A stretch of DNA of 64,000 bases from Moheibacter sediminis (GTDB lineage Bacteria; Bacteroidota; Bacteroidia; Flavobacteriales; Weeksellaceae). The translations under genes were made by a program, and so were the position numbers. Shown in pieces: positions 6,116-60,885 of the stretch. Location: NCBI RefSeq assembly GCF_900176425.1, contig NZ_FWXS01000005.1, forward strand, positions 225,376-289,375. The letters run 5' to 3'. The notes beneath the pieces were generated by a model that worked only from the letters and a program-made list of their open reading frames with translations, made no database searches and was not told the DNA's origin. Position 1 is the stretch's first letter, and each line of letters opens with the position of its first letter.

Positions 6116-7558
6116 TTATTCTATTTTTAATGTCAAATTATTATCCGGTGTTTGGTCGTTGTTCAATGCGTGTTTTGGTGATGTTATCCATCTAGAATTG
6201 TTGATTACAAATTTGAACTGGTATTCTTTATTTTTTTCAAATTGTGATTTTGGCAATTCAAGTTCAAATAAATTATTGCCTTTCACTACCATTTGAAATT
6301 TACTGTTTTCAGGATTCCAATCATTGAATGAACCTGCAACTGAAATATGATTTATCAAATCTGCATTTGCTTTTTGGTTATGTTGATATGTGAAAATTAC
6401 TTTGTCATTTGTTAATCTATAACCATAAACATTTTTTCTACTATTATTATTAGTTAGTAAATCATTAGCGATATGAAAAGTTGAATTGCTAAGAATTCTG
6501 TGTGTTTCCGGTCCGCTGATGTTCACCACTATACAAACTCCCAGATTTTGCTCCGGAAATACAGAAAACATAACCTGATTGCCATAAGCTCCTCCGTGTT
6601 TGTAAGCATATTTACCTAACTCGGAAATATAAATATTGTCCCAAAAATAACCAAACCAATTTTGTTTGCTGTTTTTAACGTTTCGTTGTGTTTCTTGTAC
6701 CGTTTTATTTTGACTTTCCAATTCAAATTGCAGAAATTGCATCAAATCACCCAAAGTTGATTTTGTTTGTAAACCTGATGAACCCCACAAATTACTAACA
6801 AAATGAGGCATTAAAATGTGATTGCTGTTATAACCATTAGCTAACTGCTCATTGGCATTTAAAGCAAATTTTGTATGGTTCATTTTTAGTTTTGACCAAA
6901 GATTTTCCCTTAGTAATTCTTCAAAAGGTTTTTCGTAAATATTTTCCAATATCAATCCCGTCAACTCAAGACTAGGATTACTATAAAGATACTTTGTTCC
7001 GGGAAGTGAGTCTAATTTTATTTTTTTAAGGTCTCTCAAAAAGTCAGGCTTAGTATAGTTTTTAGTTAATTCCACAAGTTTGAATGTTGTGCTATCATCA
7101 AAAGTTTTCATAATTTCTCTGTCATCCGGTAAAACGCTTGGAATTGCAGATTCATAAGAAATTAAATCATTGATGTGTATTGATTTTTCGTTAAATTCTA
7201 AATTCCTATAATCTCCTTTCAAATATTTCCTAATATCATCATTCAGATTGACCTTCTTTTCCAGAACAGCTTTTGCCAGTAAATACCCTGTCATAACTTT
7301 TGTGACTGAGGCTATTTCAAAGTAAGTATCATTATTGGCTTTGTTGGCTTTTCCTTTGTCAATTTCGCCATAATGTTTGGTGTAAATTTTCCCATTTTTT
7401 ACGATACCAATAGAAACCGAATATGCTTTTGATTCTAGAAGCAATGTTTCTGCATTTCCATCAATGATCGAATATATATCCTTATCTAGGTGTTTATTAT
7501 TTTGACTAAAAGTTGCTGTACTTATTAAAACCAAAAAGAAAAGGATTGTTTTACTCAT
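6116..7558 (-). CDS. beta-lactamase-fold serine hydrolase fused to a CBM48-like domain
   Basis: A 480-residue exported protein with a signal peptide (residues 1-19). Residues 25-365 are a class C beta-lactamase/PBP-like hydrolase with S84-V-T-K87, Y192-S-N194 and a K-H321-G-G motif in the place of KTG. Residues about 385-480 form a second, all-beta domain containing HISVAGSFNDWNPENSKF and a repeated ...YQFKFVINNSRW, which is the signature of CBM48/AMPK-type glycogen-binding modules. The hydrolase could act on small esters, peptides or cell-wall peptides; the carbohydrate-binding tail may target it to glycans. No operon partner: both flanks are over 100 nt. Confidence 0.8.
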   Translation of the reverse strand: MSKTILFFLVLISTATFSQNNKHLDKDIYSIIDGNAETLLLESKAYSVSIGIVKNGKIYTKHYGEIDKGKANKANNDTYFEIASVTKVMTGYLLAKAVLEKKVNLNDDIRKYLKGDYRNLEFNEKSIHINDLISYESAIPSVLPDDREIMKTFDDSTTFKLVELTKNYTKPDFLRDLKKIKLDSLPGTKYLYSNPSLELTGLILENIYEKPFEELLRENLWSKLKMNHTKFALNANEQLANGYNSNHILMPHFVSNLWGSSGLQTKSTLGDLMQFLQFELESQNKTVQETQRNVKNSKQNWFGYFWDNIYISELGKYAYKHGGAYGNQVMFSVFPEQNLGVCIVVNISGPETHRILSNSTFHIANDLLTNNNSRKNVYGYRLTNDKVIFTYQHNQKANADLINHISVAGSFNDWNPENSKFQMVVKGNNLFELELPKSQFEKNKEYQFKFVINNSRWITSPKHALNNDQTPDNNLTLKIE

Positions 7559-7665: not shown

Positions 7666-8742
7666 TCAGTTCAACCTTACTTTCGGATCCAGAATCCCAT
7701 ACAATATATCCACCAATATATTAATGAATATAAAAACAGTAGCAATCACCAAAACCGCACCCATCACAACAGGTAGATCCAAAGTATTCAATGCGTTGAC
7801 GATTTCTTTGCCCAATCCGTTCCAACCAAAAATAAACTCAATGAAAACCGCTCCGGCAAGCATTGACGCAAACCATCCTGAAGTCGCAGTAATCACAGGA
7901 TTCAAGGAATTTTTCAAAGCATGTTTCCAAATTACTTTCCTCGAACTCAAACCTTTTGCATAAGCCGTTCTGATGTAATCCTGATTCAAGACTTCCAATA
8001 AAGAATTTCGCGTCAACTGCGTAATTACCGCCAGTGGACGAATCCCTAAAGTAAAAGCGGGCAGCACCAGATTTTTCAAAGTCAAATGTTTTCCTGCGCC
8101 TAAATCATCGATTTCATATAGACTTCCCGTCATCGAAAACCCGGTTATATCATGCAGCAAATACGCAAAGATATAAGCCACTATGATTGCCGAAAAAAAC
8201 GAAGGAATACTCATCCCAAAACTCGTGATTACCAAAAGACTTCTGTCAATCCAACTGTCCTTCACCAACGCAGACCAAATCCCTAAAAGGATTCCGATGA
8301 TAATCGCAAACGTAATCGCCGAAACTGCCAAAAGAATCGTATTGGGCAAAGTTTCTTTGATTATATCTGTAACCGTTTTTCCTTGTTTCTGAAATGAAGT
8401 CCGCATGTATGGATATTTCAACAAAACGGTTGCTTTTCCAACACTGAATAAATTTGCACCTTCATATTTTTCCGATTCAATCGATGTATAAGAATTTTCC
8501 GATTTGGAATGAATCGAAACAGGCGAGAGGTCATTTAGATAAAATAAATATTGTTTCCAAAGAGGTTGGTCGAGTCCCAGACTTTTTCGGATTTGTGCCA
8601 ATTGTTCAGGGTCTTCTTTCTGGTCGAGCATCATACGTGCAGGATCGCCGGGAAGCACTGTGAACAGGAAAAAGATAATCGTTATCACACCAAAAAGTGT
8701 AATCAATCCATAAAAAATTTTATTGGTGAGGTAACGTAACAC
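7666..8742 (-). CDS. ABC transporter permease, DppB/OppB family
   Basis: A 358-residue inner-membrane permease. An N-terminal TM helix with the usual FTVLPGDPARMMLDQK segment is followed by a periplasmic insert (about residues 50-120) and then five more TM helices. The coupling EAA loop is visible as RTAYAKGLSSRKVIWKHALKNSL. This family moves peptides or nickel together with a DppC-like permease, two ATPases and a binding protein. None of those partners is adjacent, so it is an orphan here; partners are presumably elsewhere in the genome. Confidence 0.9.
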   Translation of the reverse strand: MLRYLTNKIFYGLITLFGVITIIFFLFTVLPGDPARMMLDQKEDPEQLAQIRKSLGLDQPLWKQYLFYLNDLSPVSIHSKSENSYTSIESEKYEGANLFSVGKATVLLKYPYMRTSFQKQGKTVTDIIKETLPNTILLAVSAITFAIIIGILLGIWSALVKDSWIDRSLLVITSFGMSIPSFFSAIIVAYIFAYLLHDITGFSMTGSLYEIDDLGAGKHLTLKNLVLPAFTLGIRPLAVITQLTRNSLLEVLNQDYIRTAYAKGLSSRKVIWKHALKNSLNPVITATSGWFASMLAGAVFIEFIFGWNGLGKEIVNALNTLDLPVVMGAVLVIATVFIFINILVDILYGILDPKVRLN

Positions 8743-11917: not shown

Positions 11918-11991
11918 TTCAAAAAAAACTTGCATTTTCTATTATTCTTAACCGATATTTGCAACTGAAAAGTTCAATGACTTACTGATAT

Positions 11992-12100
11992 GTTATCAAG
12001 AAAGGTGGAGGGAATAGACCCTGTGAAACCTTAGCAACCCTTTGCCAGTCAGAGAAGGTGCTAAATTCTACTCTTAATTTTTAAGTTGAGATAGATAGCG
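11992..12100 (+). ncRNA. SAM-I (S-box) riboswitch
   Basis: The conserved S-box core is present in order: TTATCAAGA, then GGTGGAGGGA with the kink-turn, GACCCTGTGAAACC, TTAGCAACC, and the downstream AAGGTGCTAAATTC segment. The P1 partner GATA lies near 12090-12095. SAM-I riboswitches bind S-adenosylmethionine and repress methionine genes. Here it sits about 125 nt upstream of the split methionine synthase and metF. I see no classic terminator hairpin in the expression platform (12100-12224), so the output may act on translation or through a non-canonical terminator. Confidence 0.93.
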
Positions 12101-12224
12101 AAAAATAATTTTCCATGCGGAGAATTTCCAATTTTCTTTTTAATATTTTGATTAAACCTCTGTGCACTTTGTATAAAACTTCGTGTCCATTGTGGTGAAG
12201 TTTTATTGATTTAATTAATTGAAA

Positions 12225-53374: not shown

Positions 53375-54763
53375 ATGATTCAAAACGATACGATTTGTGC
53401 AACTGCAACCGCTCAGGGAGTCGGAGCTTTAGGGATTATACGTGTTTCGGGGCAAGAGGCGATTTCTATTTCCAATGAAATTTTCAAAGGAAAAGATTTA
53501 ACAGAAGTTGCCTCGCATACTGTCAATTATGGATTCATTGTGGACTCAAAACTCAAAACTCAAAACTCAGAAACTGTAATAGATGAGGTCATGATTTCCG
53601 TTTTTAAAGCACCAAAAACTTTTACAGCAGAGGATTTAGTAGAGATTAGTTGTCATGGCTCGCCTTATATCCAACAACAAATTGTAGAATTATTAATCAA
53701 AAATGGTGCAAGGTTGGCTTTGCCAGGAGAATTTACGCAACGTGCATTTTTGAATGGAAGGATTGATCTATCTCAAGCCGAAGCGGTTGCTGATTTGATT
53801 GCTGCAGAAAATAAAGCTTCACATGAAATTGCTTTGAATCAAATGCGTGGTGGAATTTCTTCAGAACTGCAAGTTTTACGTGAGCAACTCATTAATTTTA
53901 CAGCATTAATTGAATTGGAGCTCGACTTTTCGGAAGAAGATGTAGAATTTGCCAATCGTCAGGAATTGAAAGAATTAGTGTCAAGTATCAAGACAAAAGT
54001 AACAGGATTACTAACGACGTTTGAATACGGAAATGCCATCAAAAATGGTGTTCCCGTTGCTATTATCGGAAAACCCAATGCAGGGAAATCGACTTTATTG
54101 AATTCGCTTTTGAATGAAGAACGCGCAATTGTTTCGGATATTCCCGGAACCACGCGTGATACGATTGAAGAAACGTTGGTCATCGACGGTATTACTTTTA
54201 GATTCATCGACACGGCAGGAATTCGTGAAACGGTGGATACGATTGAAGCAATTGGCGTGGGAAAAGCAAAGGAAAAAGTGAATTCTGCGAAAATTGTAAT
54301 TCATTTGTACGAAGAAGATTTAGATATTTTGAAAGAATTGAAACCGATTTTAGAAGACAAAATAGTATTCAATCTTTTGAGTAAAATTGATAAAAATGAT
54401 TGGGCAAATGACCGTTATGAAATGAGTTTGTTGAAAAATTATCCTAATTATCATCATTTTGGAATTTCAGTGAAATCAGGGTTTAATTTAGATTTATTGA
54501 AACAAAAATTAGTGCAATCCATTAAATCCGGGATTGATGAAAACGCCGTCATAATCACCAATATGCGCCATAAAGAAGCTTTGCAAAATGCTTTTGAATC
54601 TTTAGAAAATATAGCATCCGGAATGCGAATCGGATTGACTGGAGATTTGTTGGCATTTCATCTTCGTGAAACTTTAAAACACATAGGCTCTATTACAGGA
54701 CAAATTGATGTAGACAAGGATATTTTAGGGACTATTTTTGGGAAGTTCTGTATCGGAAAATAA
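53375..54763 (+). CDS. mnmE: tRNA modification GTPase MnmE (TrmE)
   Basis: A 462-residue GTPase that with MnmG modifies U34 of certain tRNAs. The N-terminal tetrahydrofolate-binding domain (residues 1-118) starts DTICATATAQGVGALGIIRVSGQEA. Helical parts flank the G domain with G1 IIGKPNAGKSTLLNSLL, G2/G3 DIPGTTRDTIEE and FRFIDTAGIRET, and LSKIDKND. The C-terminus ends GTIFGKFCIGK, the K-binding Cys motif. The last 18 nt plus stop form the left attachment site of the adjacent island. The reading frame is intact after integration. Confidence 0.97.
   Translation: MIQNDTICATATAQGVGALGIIRVSGQEAISISNEIFKGKDLTEVASHTVNYGFIVDSKLKTQNSETVIDEVMISVFKAPKTFTAEDLVEISCHGSPYIQQQIVELLIKNGARLALPGEFTQRAFLNGRIDLSQAEAVADLIAAENKASHEIALNQMRGGISSELQVLREQLINFTALIELELDFSEEDVEFANRQELKELVSSIKTKVTGLLTTFEYGNAIKNGVPVAIIGKPNAGKSTLLNSLLNEERAIVSDIPGTTRDTIEETLVIDGITFRFIDTAGIRETVDTIEAIGVGKAKEKVNSAKIVIHLYEEDLDILKELKPILEDKIVFNLLSKIDKNDWANDRYEMSLLKNYPNYHHFGISVKSGFNLDLLKQKLVQSIKSGIDENAVIITNMRHKEALQNAFESLENIASGMRIGLTGDLLAFHLRETLKHIGSITGQIDVDKDILGTIFGKFCIGK
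54746..54763. other. left attachment site (attL-like) in mnmE 3' end
   Basis: The last 18 nt of mnmE (codons for F-C-I-G-K-stop) recur at 60868-60885 with 15 of 18 identical positions. All three differences are synonymous third-position changes. This marks the boundary of a 6.1-kb insertion. The 3' end of trmE/mnmE is the known target of SGI1-type tyrosine recombinases. Confidence 0.85.
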
Positions 54764-54857: not shown

Positions 54858-54919
54858 TTTGTGTCAAAATTTTTGAATAGATTTAGGCACAAATTCCTTT
54901 TTTGTGCCAGTTTGTGCCA
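54858..54919. repeat. arm-type recombinase repeats, left end
   Basis: TTTGTGTCA at 54858-54866, TTTGTGCCA at 54901-54909 and again at 54911-54919, and an inverted near-copy GGCACAAA at 54886-54893. The same 9-mer recurs inverted at 60822-60830 near the right end. Clustered at both ends of an integrative element, they are good candidates for accessory sites bound by the recombinase or excisionase. Confidence 0.55.
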
Positions 54920-54997
54920 AATAATAAGGTTTGTAAATTGAAAGAAAGTGGATTTGTCCGCTTATGTCCATTTAAAGTATGCCTATGTCTGTTTATT

Positions 54998-55390
54998 ATG
55001 ATTTCAGCCAACAAAACATATCACAAAATTTGTCTGTTTTGCAGAAAGGAATTTGAAGCACAAAAGAGAACGACTAAATTTTGTAGTCATCAATGTGCTT
55101 CAAGGGCGTACAAAGTGAAAACCAGACATAAATTGGATTTAGAAGTGAATTTTGAAGATTATGTAAAGAGAGAACTTCAATTACACACCGATTTACTCAA
55201 TCAAATACAGACAACTTTAAGTGAATTATTATCATACCAAAAAATCGGTTCTCGAAAATTTATAACGCCTGCTGAATATTGTAAATTGAATGGTATCAGC
55301 AGAAAAACGTTACATCGTTATATTAAAGAAGATATGGTAATAGCAAAGAAAATAAGTAGTCGTAAATATTTAATTCAATCGGATATATGA
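54998..55390 (+). CDS. zinc-finger/HTH DNA-binding protein, excisionase-like
   Basis: A 130-residue protein from the ATG at 54998. Residues 10-35 hold a Cys-rich knuckle (KICLFCRKEFEAQKRTTKFCSHQCASRAYK) and the middle is a short coiled helix (VKRELQLHTDLLNQIQTTLSELL). The C-terminus is a MerR/excisionase-type HTH (FITPAEYCKLNGISRKTLHRYIKEDMVIAKKI). Its last 4 nt overlap the recombinase start (ATGA), so they are coupled; a role in directing excision or repressing the recombinase is likely. An upstream in-frame ATG at 54902 would add a non-conserved 32 residues. Confidence 0.75.
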   Translation: MISANKTYHKICLFCRKEFEAQKRTTKFCSHQCASRAYKVKTRHKLDLEVNFEDYVKRELQLHTDLLNQIQTTLSELLSYQKIGSRKFITPAEYCKLNGISRKTLHRYIKEDMVIAKKISSRKYLIQSDI

Positions 55391-56463
55391 AAGTAAAAAC
55401 GTATTTAAGAACGGCAAAAGACGGTAAAAGTCTTATCTATGTTGATTATTCTGTCAATGGCAAAAGACAAAGAAAGAAAACAGGAATGTTTTTGTATGAC
55501 CGTCCAAAAAATATTCCCGAAAGAGAGCACAACAAGCAGACTTATGTTTCTCAATTAACGCTAAAAATTCAGAATAACGAATTGGGTATAAAAACGCCTA
55601 AGCATAAAATCAAAGACTTTGTAGTTTATTTTGAACATTTGACCCAACAAAGAGAAAACACAGAAAAGAATTACAGCACTTGGAAATCAGCGTTAAAACA
55701 TTTGAAAGAATTTTATTCTGACGGATTGAAATTTAGCGATTTAGATATTAATTCGTTAGAACAATTTTCACATTATTTAACCGATGTGAAAAAGTTAAAA
55801 ACGTCTTCTGCCAATAATTATTTCAATGTTGTTTTGCACGGTGTTCACGATGCTTTCAGAGATAGAATGATTGATATTGACTATGCAGAATATGTAAAAG
55901 CACCAAAAATAGAGCAAGCTGTAAGAGTTTATCTGACAGAAGATGAGATACTAAAACTCGAAAATGCACATTGCAAAAATCTGTTGTTGAAAAAAACGTT
56001 TTTGTTTTCGTGCAGAACAGGAATGTCTTTTACTGATGTGAAAAATTTAGAATGGCAACACTTCAAAAAAGACCACGACGGAAATTATTTTATAGCATTC
56101 CACAGAAAGAAAACCAAAGGTCTGCAATACCACCCGATTACAAAAGAAGCAAAAGATTTGTTGGGCGAATCAGGAAAACCCGATGAAAAAATATTCAAAG
56201 ATTTGCGTTACAATAGTTGGATGAATATAATTTTGAAAGAATGGATGTTTCAGGCAGATATTAAAAAACCGATTACGTTCCATTGTGCAAGACACTCGTA
56301 TGCAACACTTTTACTGCACAAAGGTGCTGATATAACCGAAGTGAAAGAATTATTGGGTCACGAAGATTTGAAAACAACAATGAGATACGCTCACGTTATG
56401 GATTCAGATTTGAGAAAAGCGGCAGAACTGATAAAATTCAATTCCAATCAGACAAACGGGTAA
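55387..56463 (+). CDS. tyrosine recombinase (site-specific integrase)
   Basis: A 358-residue enzyme with an Arm domain (residues 1-75), an SAM-like core-binding domain (about 85-175: VVYFEHLTQQRENTEKNYSTW ...) and a catalytic domain. The catalytic set is complete: R210 in SCRTGMSF, a Lys near 242, H299-x-x-R302 in FHCARHSYATLLL, H325 in LLGHEDLKTT and Y334 in TMRYAHV. It is of the Bacteroidota integrative-element type and should act at the mnmE 3' end. Intact and probably functional. Confidence 0.93.
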   Translation: MKVKTYLRTAKDGKSLIYVDYSVNGKRQRKKTGMFLYDRPKNIPEREHNKQTYVSQLTLKIQNNELGIKTPKHKIKDFVVYFEHLTQQRENTEKNYSTWKSALKHLKEFYSDGLKFSDLDINSLEQFSHYLTDVKKLKTSSANNYFNVVLHGVHDAFRDRMIDIDYAEYVKAPKIEQAVRVYLTEDEILKLENAHCKNLLLKKTFLFSCRTGMSFTDVKNLEWQHFKKDHDGNYFIAFHRKKTKGLQYHPITKEAKDLLGESGKPDEKIFKDLRYNSWMNIILKEWMFQADIKKPITFHCARHSYATLLLHKGADITEVKELLGHEDLKTTMRYAHVMDSDLRKAAELIKFNSNQTNG

Positions 56464-56550: not shown

Positions 56551-56949
56551 GTGAAAAAAGCATACTTTCCTGCATCGATGATTATTTATACAATCAGGCA
56601 GATACAAAGCAATTCTGATACTCAAAATGAAAAACCAATAATTTATACAGCGATTGAAAAAGAAGCGGTTTTTAAAGGTGGAGACAGCAAATTAAATCAA
56701 TACATTTCTCAACATCTCAATATTCCCGAGTCAGCACACAATTTTTCAGGTAAAGTGATTGTAAATTTTGTCGTTAATGAAGACGGTTCTGTGAGTAATA
56801 TAGAAATTAAACAGACTATTCCTATTGAATTGAAAAATGAGATTGAAAAGTTATTTAAAAATATGCCGAATTGGACACCTGCAAAATCAGAAGGAAAAAA
56901 TGTAAAAATGAGAAAAATTTTTCCCGTTTTATTTTCGGGAAATGAATGA
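56551..56949 (+). CDS. TonB C-terminal-domain protein
   Basis: A 132-residue protein, with GTG start at 56551 or ATG at 56578. Residues about 35-125 match the TonB C-terminal domain (AVFKGGDSKLNQYISQHLNIP, KVIVNFVVNEDGSVSNIEI, MPNWTPAKSEGKNVKMRKIFPV). It has no TM anchor or Pro-rich linker, so it is not a complete TonB; a soluble or secreted partner, or a cut-down gene, is possible. It sits between the recombinase and the cargo promoter, with 87 and 127 nt gaps. Confidence 0.65.
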   Translation: MKKAYFPASMIIYTIRQIQSNSDTQNEKPIIYTAIEKEAVFKGGDSKLNQYISQHLNIPESAHNFSGKVIVNFVVNEDGSVSNIEIKQTIPIELKNEIEKLFKNMPNWTPAKSEGKNVKMRKIFPVLFSGNE

Positions 56950-56998: not shown

Positions 56999-57030
56999 CA
57001 AAATAAAGGGTATTTTCCCTTTTTTATTTG
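56999..57030. repeat. inverted repeat overlapping the cargo promoter
   Basis: AATAAAGGG and CCCTTTTTTATT are inverted copies around TATTTT. The right arm covers the -33 TTTG of the following promoter. It could be the terminator of the TonB-like gene, an operator for the HTH-ImmA/IrrE protein, or both. Confidence 0.5.
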
Positions 57031-57057
57031 AAAAAGCAATTTAATTCCATATATTTG
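57027..57057 (+). promoter_or_regulatory. strong Bacteroidota promoter of the cargo operon
   Basis: TTTG (57027-57030), a 19-nt spacer and TATATTTG (57050-57057) are an ideal match to TTTG-N19-TAnnTTTG. The start codon follows 19 nt downstream. Confidence 0.75.
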
Positions 57058-57076
57058 CAGGGTAAATTCTCTTTTT

Positions 57077-58270
57077 ATGGAAAATGTAGATATAAATAAA
57101 TTACTGAAATCTATTTTTTCAGAAGAGTCAAATATCAATATTAAAGATGTTTTTGAGCAAAAACTTTTAGAATACAATATAAGTAAAACAAAAGCATTAA
57201 AACTTCTCAATATTGATAAAGACGTATTTGAAGAAATTATAAACGGAACTGCAAAGCAACCTAATTTAATTCACGTTGTTAAAATAGCGGAGTTTATAAA
57301 TTATGATGTCAATGAATTTATAAAGATAGTTCTGAAAAATCAGAGCATAGATAATATTGCTTCTATTGAAAATGCCCGAAAAGCAACTTTTATCGTTAAG
57401 AATTTTGATGTAAAAAGGCTAACTAAATTAGGTTTTTTTGATAGTAAAGATGATACAGACGAATTAGTCAATAAAGTTCTTTCGTTTTTTGGATATAAAT
57501 CTATAAAAGAGTTTGAAGAACAGCTTGACGAGCCATTGTATAGTCGCACAAAAAAGAATTTTTCAGACAAAATGAAAGATTTTTGGATAAAATCGGCTTA
57601 TCAAACATTCAGAGTTATAAATAATCCTAATGAATACAATAGAGAACGATTAAAAGAGCTTATTGTAAAAATCAAACCATATTCACAAGATGTTAGAGAT
57701 GGTTTATTTACTGTCTGCAAGGCACTTTACAATATTGGGGTTACTGTAATTTTTCAAAATTATTTATCTACAACACAGATTAGGGGAGCAACCTTTGTTA
57801 TAAATAATAAGCCCTGTGTGGTAATTACGGATTTTAATAAAAAATATCCAACACTTTGGTTTACTTTATTACACGAGTTACACCACATTTTATTTGATTA
57901 TGATTTGATAGAAACTAATAGTTTTCATCTAACAGGGGACAATGATTTATTTCTAATTGAAGAAAAAGCAGATTCTTTTGCAAGAGAATTTTTCTTTTCA
58001 GAAGATAAGTTTCACTTCATAAGAAGATATGTTAATAACCCTTATATGGTTTCAAAGTTTGCGAAAGAAAATGAAATTCACGAATCTATTGTTTATTCAT
58101 TTTTTGCGTGGTATCAAGATAAATTATACGGAAAAAATTATCACGCAGCATATAAAGAATTTTATCCTGATTATAACCACGCAATTAAAAAGCTGAATCC
58201 TATTACTTGGGATAATGAGAGTATTGCGGTGGCGAGCGAAAAAATAAAGTCTGTTTTAGAAATTAAATAA
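57077..58270 (+). CDS. HTH plus ImmA/IrrE-type zinc metallopeptidase
   Basis: A 397-residue protein. Residues about 30-85 look like an XRE-type HTH (LLEYNISKTKALKLLNIDKDVFEEIINGT ... VVKIAEFINYDVNEFI). A helical spacer with a KIKPYSQDVRDGLFTVCKAL segment follows, then the peptidase domain with HELHH (266-270) in LLHELHHILFDYD and the third ligand in EEKADSFAREFFF. ImmA/IrrE peptidases cleave repressors in phage, mobile elements and the Deinococcus IrrE damage response. It is the first cargo gene, separated from the next by 11 nt. Confidence 0.88.
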   Translation: MENVDINKLLKSIFSEESNINIKDVFEQKLLEYNISKTKALKLLNIDKDVFEEIINGTAKQPNLIHVVKIAEFINYDVNEFIKIVLKNQSIDNIASIENARKATFIVKNFDVKRLTKLGFFDSKDDTDELVNKVLSFFGYKSIKEFEEQLDEPLYSRTKKNFSDKMKDFWIKSAYQTFRVINNPNEYNRERLKELIVKIKPYSQDVRDGLFTVCKALYNIGVTVIFQNYLSTTQIRGATFVINNKPCVVITDFNKKYPTLWFTLLHELHHILFDYDLIETNSFHLTGDNDLFLIEEKADSFAREFFFSEDKFHFIRRYVNNPYMVSKFAKENEIHESIVYSFFAWYQDKLYGKNYHAAYKEFYPDYNHAIKKLNPITWDNESIAVASEKIKSVLEIK

Positions 58271-58281
58271 AAATATACAGA

Positions 58282-58830
58282 ATGGAAGATAAAAATAAAA
58301 AAATTAAGAAAGAGCAAGGGGTATCACAAGCTGATATAGAAAGATTAGAACTTTTGCAAAAAGCCAATGAGAAAGTTGGAAAACAATTATCTATTAATTC
58401 GGAAACTGGTAATATTGAAGAAATTAATGAGTTAAGAGAATTAATAGGAAAAGAATTTGACAATCCCGAAGAAAAATATAGAATATACTACAATGGGATT
58501 AGAAAACTTTTAATGGATTTTCTTCCAAAAGGAAAAGATTTTAAGGAAGTCAGAGATATAATCTATGATGAAAAAAACATCTTTCTAAACTTGGGAAAAC
58601 GTAAATCTGACAATAATGGTGTAAGAAAGTCTGACGGTAGAATGACTTATCAACCTGTTATGAATGAAATCTTGGATATTATCGTGCAATGGGTGGGAGA
58701 ATCTCAAAATCCGTTTGACATATATCGAGCATTTTATGAGCTAAATGAAAAGCACGGATACGGACACGAAGAATACGATAAATCTGCTTTAAGCGTAGCA
58801 AAAGCTATGTTGAAGTTAAGTGAAAAATAA
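58282..58830 (+). CDS. 182-aa protein of unknown function in the cargo operon
   Basis: A mostly helical, soluble protein of 182 residues. The N-terminus is charged (KNKKIKKEQGVSQADIERLELLQK), the middle has IYYNGIRKLLMDFLPKGKDF, and the C-terminal part reads NPFDIYRAFYELNEKHGYGH. No TM or metal motif seen. I do not recognise the family. Placement between the ImmA/IrrE peptidase (11 nt upstream) and the NTPase (22 nt downstream) suggests a substrate, regulator or adaptor for one of them. Confidence 0.65.
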   Translation: MEDKNKKIKKEQGVSQADIERLELLQKANEKVGKQLSINSETGNIEEINELRELIGKEFDNPEEKYRIYYNGIRKLLMDFLPKGKDFKEVRDIIYDEKNIFLNLGKRKSDNNGVRKSDGRMTYQPVMNEILDIIVQWVGESQNPFDIYRAFYELNEKHGYGHEEYDKSALSVAKAMLKLSEK

Positions 58831-58852
58831 TTAAAAGAATCTTCCCTTTTCT

Positions 58853-60676
58853 ATGAAAAACAATTATATCGAAGATGTTTTCAGTGATTATTTGAAAACA
58901 GAAAAAACAAATTATGCTTTGCTTATTAATGGTACTTGGGGAAGTGGTAAAACGTATTATTGGAAAAATATACTTGCAAAACTTGCAGAAGAAGCCAAAT
59001 TAACGCCTATTTATTTATCGCTTAACGGTATAAGCAAGATAGAAACATTAGATTATCAATTAAAAATTAAGCTAATACCGTTTCTTAACAAATTAGATAT
59101 AAAAAATAGTGCTTCGATTGGTAAATTGTCAAAAAATGCTCTTTTTCAATGGGTAAAGGGAAAATGGGGTATTGATGCAGAAGAACTAATAAAAGATGTA
59201 GATATTGATTTAACTTTATTCTCAAAAAATGTTCTTTGTTTTGATGATTTGGAAAGGTGTAAAATTCCGCTATCAGAAGTTTTGGGATATGTAAATAACT
59301 TTGTTGAGCATAAAAATTCCAAAGTCATTTTTTTGTCAGATGAAAGCAAAATACTTGATAAAGATGAAAACTATAATTCAATAAAAGAAAAAGTAGTGGG
59401 GCGGATTTTAAATTTTAAAAATAATTTGTCCGATTCTTTTCCATTGCTTTTTGAAAAATATATTGACACTAATCCTGAATTTTATGCTTTCCTGAAAGAA
59501 AAAAAAGAATTCATATATAGTCTATTAACAGAATACAAGCAAGAAAATTTAAGAAACATAGCATTCTATCTTGAAAGTCTGAATAAAATATATCCTTTCA
59601 TAAAAAATCACGCCAATTATTCTGATGAAGTATTATTGTTCACGCTTATTATTACTCTTGAATTTAAAACAGGGAATTTAACATCAAATGACTTTGAAGA
59701 TTTTAAAGGGTATGACGATATTAATTCTGCTTTTTCGCTGTTTAATTTTTCGCAACTTCTAAATGACAACCATTCTAACAACGAAGCCAAAAAAGAAGAA
59801 CCTAAATCAGAATTAGAATTATTCCACGAAAAATATCTACAAAATAATATTTCTATTTATTGTTTTTATCCGTCAATATACCAGTATATTTTAACAGGTT
59901 ATCTTGACACTGATAAATTGTCAAATGAATTAACATCAAGATACCCAATAGAAATACCAAAAGAAACAACTGCATTCAGAAAATTACTCAACTACAATTT
60001 TAGACATTTACCAAATGATGAGTTTACCGAACTTTTTAGTGAGGTTTTAGAACACTCAAAGAATGGTAAATATAGTATCTATGATTATTTACAGATTTCT
60101 AACTTTTTCAATTATTTTTCCAATAATAAGTTAATTAACCTATCACTTCAAGAAATTCAAGAAGTATTATCTAATGGAATCAATATAGCTAAATTAAGGG
60201 AAGAAAGTGATAAAAGACTTTATGATTCTATTTTTCATTTCGGAACGAAAGATTATGACCAAGTTATTGTTGAATTGATAAAAGAAGCCCATAAATCAAT
60301 TATTGCAAAAAAAGAGAAAATTAAAGTTAATAAACTTATAATTGCTCTTTCAGAAGATAATAGCGAATTGGTTACTGATATATTTAGCGAGTATCAAGTT
60401 AGGAAAGAGTTGTTTGAATTGTTAAAGCCCGATGAACTATTTAATGCTTTACAATCTATAAAAAATGAAACACTCTCTGAATTTAATCTATTATTAAGTG
60501 ATAGGTATAAGTCGGTTAATATTAAAGACTTTTTAAGTTCGGACTTAGCATTTCTTGAAGAATTAAACTCTTTGATAGTGAGAAAATTAAACAACAAGAA
60601 AAGTTTTCAGGTTCAAGATTTACTTTTTAAAGAGTTATCTCATACAATAGATGAAATTTGTAAAAAACTAAGGTAG
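58853..60676 (+). CDS. KAP-like P-loop NTPase
   Basis: A 607-residue protein with Walker A NGTWGSGKTYY (26-36) and Walker B NVLCFDDLERCKI (about 125-137), followed by a FLSDESKI sensor-like strand. This spacing and the DDLERC motif are typical of KAP/STAND-like P-loop NTPases. The C-terminal two-thirds are helical and poorly conserved (a sensor or effector part), with an Asn/Glu-rich loop near residue 310. No TM insertion is seen, unlike many KAP proteins. KAP NTPases occur in bacterial defence loci such as Qat (QatA). It is the last gene of the island. Confidence 0.85.
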   Translation: MKNNYIEDVFSDYLKTEKTNYALLINGTWGSGKTYYWKNILAKLAEEAKLTPIYLSLNGISKIETLDYQLKIKLIPFLNKLDIKNSASIGKLSKNALFQWVKGKWGIDAEELIKDVDIDLTLFSKNVLCFDDLERCKIPLSEVLGYVNNFVEHKNSKVIFLSDESKILDKDENYNSIKEKVVGRILNFKNNLSDSFPLLFEKYIDTNPEFYAFLKEKKEFIYSLLTEYKQENLRNIAFYLESLNKIYPFIKNHANYSDEVLLFTLIITLEFKTGNLTSNDFEDFKGYDDINSAFSLFNFSQLLNDNHSNNEAKKEEPKSELELFHEKYLQNNISIYCFYPSIYQYILTGYLDTDKLSNELTSRYPIEIPKETTAFRKLLNYNFRHLPNDEFTELFSEVLEHSKNGKYSIYDYLQISNFFNYFSNNKLINLSLQEIQEVLSNGINIAKLREESDKRLYDSIFHFGTKDYDQVIVELIKEAHKSIIAKKEKIKVNKLIIALSEDNSELVTDIFSEYQVRKELFELLKPDELFNALQSIKNETLSEFNLLLSDRYKSVNIKDFLSSDLAFLEELNSLIVRKLNNKKSFQVQDLLFKELSHTIDEICKKLR

Positions 60677-60867: not shown

Positions 60868-60885
60868 TTTTGTATCGGGAAGTAA
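60868..60885. other. right attachment site (attR-like), duplicate of mnmE 3' end
   Basis: It encodes F-C-I-G-K-stop in frame like the end of mnmE, with 15 of 18 nt identical; three synonymous third-position changes separate the two copies. The preceding codons (C-I) do not continue mnmE, as expected for a site-specific crossover within the repeat. Confidence 0.85.

Follow-up and report, generated by a model that had tools for sequence, protein, structure and literature searches.

We investigated three adjacent genes on a small integrated element in a 64,000-nucleotide stretch of Moheibacter sediminis DNA (hereafter the window) and found that the conserved unit consists of the first two genes, pep and p182, together with two palindromes upstream of pep, while the trio itself is not conserved. 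At odds of roughly one in two, we read this unit as a mobile, self-repressing cassette that switches on the gene behind it under stress. The three open reading frames (ORFs) lie close together, as a sequence-only reading of the window had described; they are co-directional on the + strand, with gaps of 11 and 22 bp. pep (57077..58270, +) encodes a single 397-aa chain in which an HTH-type domain, predicted to bind DNA as a repressor, is fused to a predicted M78 (CapP/IrrE-type) peptidase with an intact motif set. p182 (58282..58830, +) encodes a conserved helical partner of no known family, and the third gene at this locus encodes a KAP NTPase (58853..60676, +), predicted to act against phage.

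A conserved pair

Close relatives of p182 were sought in 84,980 species genomes, which gave 32 named loci. In 31 of these, pep lies directly upstream of p182, at 43-98% identity, and the p182 of the sole exception (L033) is truncated. The NTPase was found behind p182 in only one of the 32 (L002). Among 395 genomes of the phylum, p182 occurred in 12 and the NTPase in 12, and the two sets overlapped in the window genome only. pep adjoins p182 in 10 of these 12 p182 genomes; the matches in L040 and L045 lie at a contig end. Further draws, in which some genomes were drawn again, yielded p182 in 6 of 349 and 3 of 251 genomes, with pep adjoining it in those loci that were examined. Likewise, a search with pep in 390 genomes returned 12 strong matches (E <=3e-62) before dropping to 1e-14, and p182 adjoins pep in 10 of the 12. 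By these counts the trio hardly co-occurs outside this genome, an outcome that the sequence-only reading had itself named as refuting, and the trio-specific system that it proposed is largely refuted. Relatives of the KAP NTPase elsewhere have other neighbours and lack the pair. One distant relative, on a Paenibacillus plasmid (L131, 3239-5752), lies 15 bp behind a gene annotated as putative phage abortive infection.

In the remaining two strong pep matches, the protein in the p182 slot is 40% and 32% identical to a P63C-domain protein, and next to pep in G424, G163 and five Hymenobacter plasmids a P63C-type protein stands in for the missing p182. When p182 was compared with P63C, none of 33 p182 members matched Pfam P63C (PF10546), and hhalign gave a probability of 0.35%. 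On the Hymenobacter plasmids (L059, L062, L063, L064 and L065), where pep is paired with the PF10546 protein, AAA/PDDEXK, TIR, P-loop NTPase or reverse-transcriptase genes lie within a few kb.

The M78 residues H266, E267, H270 and E295 of pep are invariant (55/55). CapP is its best structural match and a CapP fold is possible; the PADLOC model PD-Lambda-2_B is matched at 5e-20. p182 matched neither a PADLOC model nor any of the toxin and antitoxin families searched. The KAP NTPase matches the PADLOC profile PDC-S49 over its full length (residues 2-606, 6e-77). The locus had been proposed as a candidate undescribed defence or stress system; the NTPase is already catalogued as a single-gene candidate, and the link to defence still appears probable. 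Qat systems carry QatB, QatC and QatD beside their NTPase, and none of these was matched among the six element proteins scanned.

Paired palindromes, a recurring block and exchanged third genes

The two palindromes before pep bracket a candidate promoter. The distal operator candidate, AGGGTATTTTCCCT (57007..57020, +), and the proximal one, AGGGTAAATTCTCT (57059..57072, +), are 52 bp apart, start to start, and between them lies TTTG-N19-TATATTTG (57027..57057, +), which fits what we take to be the Bacteroidota promoter consensus. For the strong promoter claimed earlier in this region, a sigma-70 scan came out near chance (40 found vs 35.4 expected), but the candidate just given is of Bacteroidota type. 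Across 57 loci, with the duplicates L111 and L112 left out and close relatives included, 39 carry a TAnnTTTG box in this region, 14 have only a relaxed version of it and 4 have neither. When sites were picked by symmetry alone, the spacing was 52-54 bp in 34 of the 57 loci and exactly 52 bp in 24. Scoring pairs on symmetry and likeness raised this to 45 of 57, and to 44 of 46 after 11 plasmid-record or P63C-type loci were dropped.

The sites also resemble each other within a locus. The distal site shared on average 8.63 of 14 bases with its own proximal site and 6.60 with those of other loci, a difference reached in 0 of 2000 permutations. When the comparison was restricted to 26 loci with sites diverging from AGGGTA, the values were 8.15 and 5.82 (0 of 5000 permutations). 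TCTCAAAACTGAGA, for instance, occurs twice in each of L108 and L109, TTGAAAWWTTTCAA twice in L107, and a AGGTAAATTTACCT-like site twice in L110 and in L037. In the window's own genome, AGGGTAWWTWCYCT has three exact matches, two of which are the operator candidates. Sites that are alike within a locus and differ between loci are expected if pep binds both and drifts with them, and from this pattern we infer that pep probably binds both palindromes.

The pair and its palindromes recur as a block of ~1.84 kb that opens with the distal palindrome and closes with the p182 stop. It lies at unrelated genome positions in Bacteroidota, with KAP, AbiTii, AbiH, SIR2-like, DUF2806 or type I restriction genes behind it. 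Block edges were taken from the ends of BLAST alignments and are approximate. Of 19 pairwise DNA comparisons, 17 place the right edge of the shared block <=51 bp from the p182 stop, and 11 place its left edge 76-87 bp before the pep start, that is, at the distal palindrome. The two comparisons with no right edge are L014/L015, in which the whole region is shared, and window/L002, which carry the same element. Three Sphingobacterium loci share the block at 89-93% identity and continue with an 81-aa gene, AbiTii and DUF2806, respectively.

In L008, from position 8565, a 263-aa frame without an ATG takes in the end of the block or begins right at it, which looks like an insertion into the beginning of a host gene. 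In marine Flavobacteriaceae, attC-like repeats with RYYYAAC ... GTTRRRY ends, assigned by the core site rules for attC, flank the pair as in an integron-type cassette (L005, 5110-5260, 7262-7340 and 12019-12097; L009, ~6600-6715). Three loci have a transposase-like gene, by eye of IS1595-like type, immediately before the pair (L106, 2041-2996; L108, 12197-13093; L109, 3226-4140).

A next ORF of at least 100 aa, counting ATG starts only, was present in 37 of the 38 loci taken, and in 11 of these 37 it is a same-strand third gene within 50 bp. Six of the 11 are of defence type: KAP in the window and L002 (one element), AbiTii in L020, the N-terminal part of AbiH in L026, a SIR2-like gene in L018 (Pfam 19.1 of 24.5 bits, below the cut-off) and, in L105, a type I methyltransferase followed by specificity-sized and restriction subunits (counted here by its stop-to-start gap of 26 bp). 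The others are DUF2806 (L021), a 316-aa gene with no family given (L022), a Crp-like gene (L028) and MgtC (L014 and L015). In several loci the third gene starts 9-26 bp after p182, which leaves no room for a promoter. Six more loci have a same-strand third gene at 86-484 bp, namely a cytosine methyltransferase (L005), HEPN_AbiU2 (L017), a type IIG enzyme (L107) and others (L006, L019 and L024). The L005 methyltransferase is a neighbour and not an operon gene, because an attC-like repeat separates it from the pair. As a control, the nearest upstream genes were compared with the downstream ones (37 proteins each side); this gave 70 families upstream vs 162 downstream, a count of families only that does not settle whether the downstream side is special.

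Controller or self-contained unit

How might such a cassette work? pep would bind both palindromes and keep the promoter shut, perhaps by looping. A phage- or damage-linked stress signal would then activate its CapP/IrrE-like peptidase, which would remove the repressor, either itself or sister molecules. This would allow production of p182 and of the NTPase, the latter serving as effector. The roles suggested before for the NTPase, as likely effector, and for the peptidase, as likely controller, are retained here as probable. The weakest step is the role of p182. Our best guess is a regulatory partner, as sensor or protease substrate; that it is the cassette's own default effector seems less likely. 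A self-repressing repressor-protease block, in effect CapH and CapP in one chain, would account for the domain fusion, the paired sites, the sharp edges of the block and the changing third genes.

Four results weigh against this reading. The window's own palindrome pair does not beat its 60 shuffles, and in 20 of the 57 loci the pair is no better than shuffles. The 52-54 bp spacing is found in only 1 of the 11 plasmid-record or P63C-type loci. Finally, 20 of the 37 loci have no nearby same-strand third gene. These solitary pairs sit badly with a pure controller and suit a pair that does something by itself and may gain an effector; we therefore hold the controller at even odds and leave a smaller but real share to a self-contained unit.

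Such a unit would be a complete two-gene system of the toxin-antitoxin-like or abortive-infection kind, with pep or p182 as its toxic part, that merely settles near defence genes. It is a possible reading, though clearly less likely than a controller. Besides the number of solitary pairs, it would account for their conservation, as pep is 93-98% identical at the protein level between several solitary loci (L003/L004, L007/L008/L016 and L009/L010) and its M78 site does not vary. Furthermore, in PD-lambda-2, whose component B is the model that pep matches, the HTH-peptidase alone was toxic and a partner brought rescue, according to the part of PMC9519451 used here. However, a self-contained unit does not explain third genes that sit too close to p182 for a promoter of their own or that differ between loci with near-identical pairs, nor does it fit a p182 that resembles none of the toxins and antitoxins searched.

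It is very improbable that the pair is an ImmR/ImmA-type lysogeny switch that controls transfer of the mobile element and not defence: although the domains are of this type, the promoter and paired sites point to the pair's own operon, the integrase lies upstream and not behind the operators, integrase-like matches are found in few pair loci (L017, L032 and L041), and the shared block excludes the integrase. Least probable is that the three genes form one specific defence system, since the trio is adjacent, co-directional and of high identity only in the window and L002, inside a 4.3-kb stretch of 90% identical DNA, against the counts and the other neighbours of KAP relatives given above.

Far less is known of the means by which anti-phage genes stay silent until they are required than of what they do. 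Known controllers of adjacent immune operons include CapW/BrxR, CapH + CapP and CapK + CapS (PMC13373217, in part) and RptR (PMC12255303, in part). CapH + CapP resembles the cassette in that an HTH repressor and an M78-type peptidase stand beside diverse immune genes, and pep has the HExxH motif and downstream acidic residue by which the peptidase is recognised. Placement before an immune operon is seen in the window and several relatives, but not in the solitary pairs. In CapH + CapP, single-stranded DNA activates the peptidase, which cleaves the repressor, and pep may behave likewise. Whereas CapH and CapP are separate genes, pep is one fused chain; and the conserved p182 (or P63C) partner, the two palindromes mostly 52-54 bp apart and the sharply bounded mobile block set the pep locus apart from CapH + CapP as far as the sections of PMC13373217 used here describe it. 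CapK + CapS, in the same source, resembles the cassette as two genes upstream of diverse immune operons with a repressor that binds two sites, but consists of a kinase and a STAS-domain repressor unrelated to pep or p182. RptR, associated with type I restriction-modification, heads a defence operon, represses itself and has several palindromes in its promoter; unlike pep, it is, in the portion of PMC12255303 cited, a small helical repressor without a peptidase and has 6-bp sites in closely spaced repeats.

The prediction that toxin-antitoxin-like operons contain HTH-peptidase fusions dates from 2009 (PMC2701414, in part), and such fusions were tested in PD-lambda-2, whose HTH-peptidase fusion (PMC9519451, in part) is built as pep is. 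The COG2856-Xre modules of the former are HTH-Zn-peptidase fusions in operons, proposed as three-component modules with RelE and PIN partners; p182, the paired sites and the exchange of cargo are absent from that part of the description. The HigB-like component A of PD-lambda-2 was not matched among the six element proteins scanned, and the gene upstream of pep encodes a TonB_C domain; as for component C, p182 and the NTPase gave no match to the remaining PD-Lambda-2 models. PDC-S49 is catalogued in PADLOC as a single-gene candidate. In the literature searched, which mostly excludes subscription journals and preprints, neither the combination of pep and p182, nor the paired sites, nor the portable block was found described.

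If the controller reading is true, the block, which brings along its operators and promoter as well as the repressor-protease and its partner, would serve Bacteroidota defence genes as a portable control unit and would be a marker for new ones, with the 316-aa gene of L022 and the DUF2806 gene of L021 as candidates. The idea can be put to a direct test through the paired sites. More tentatively, and at somewhat less than even odds, a single-chain repressor-protease with p182 (or P63C) and a looping double operator, portable as ~1.84 kb, may be a further class of immune-operon controller. Such a cassette would make the gene it lands before infection-inducible, and its operators, matched per locus and differing per branch, would provide many mutually independent versions across Bacteroidota.

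The host element at mnmE

The three genes sit in an element of ~6.1 kb whose integration site is the mnmE 3' end. The final 18 bases of the mnmE reading frame (54746..54763, +; attL) are repeated at 60868..60885 (+; attR) with 4 differences, and both copies encode FCIGK-stop. Besides the three genes, the copies enclose a 162-aa protein with a zinc-ribbon-like N-terminus and weak excisionase-type HTH matches (54902..55390, +), a tyrosine integrase (55387..56463, +; Pfam Phage_integrase, 4e-19) and a TonB_C-domain protein (56551..56949, +). The last of these is further cargo, where the sequence-only reading had seen no other obvious cargo. An integrase flanked by duplicated mnmE ends marks this as an mnmE-integrated element. 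The right copy equals the mnmE end of a same-genus genome, G002, in 19 of 19 bases; a second copy was not seen in the 10.5-kb stretch taken after mnmE in G002. The 90% DNA likeness between the window and L002 ends at 60881, within the right copy, and the two are copies of one element.

In another same-genus genome, G005, the left end at the mnmE 3' end (L133) is similar and has ORFs of this kind, 124 and 360 aa long, the 124-aa ORF looking homologous to the 162-aa protein. In this G005 element, at the same attachment gene, 263-, 99- and 292-aa ORFs replace the trio. Elsewhere in the window, a SAM riboswitch (RF00162) lies at 11990-12101 on the + strand.
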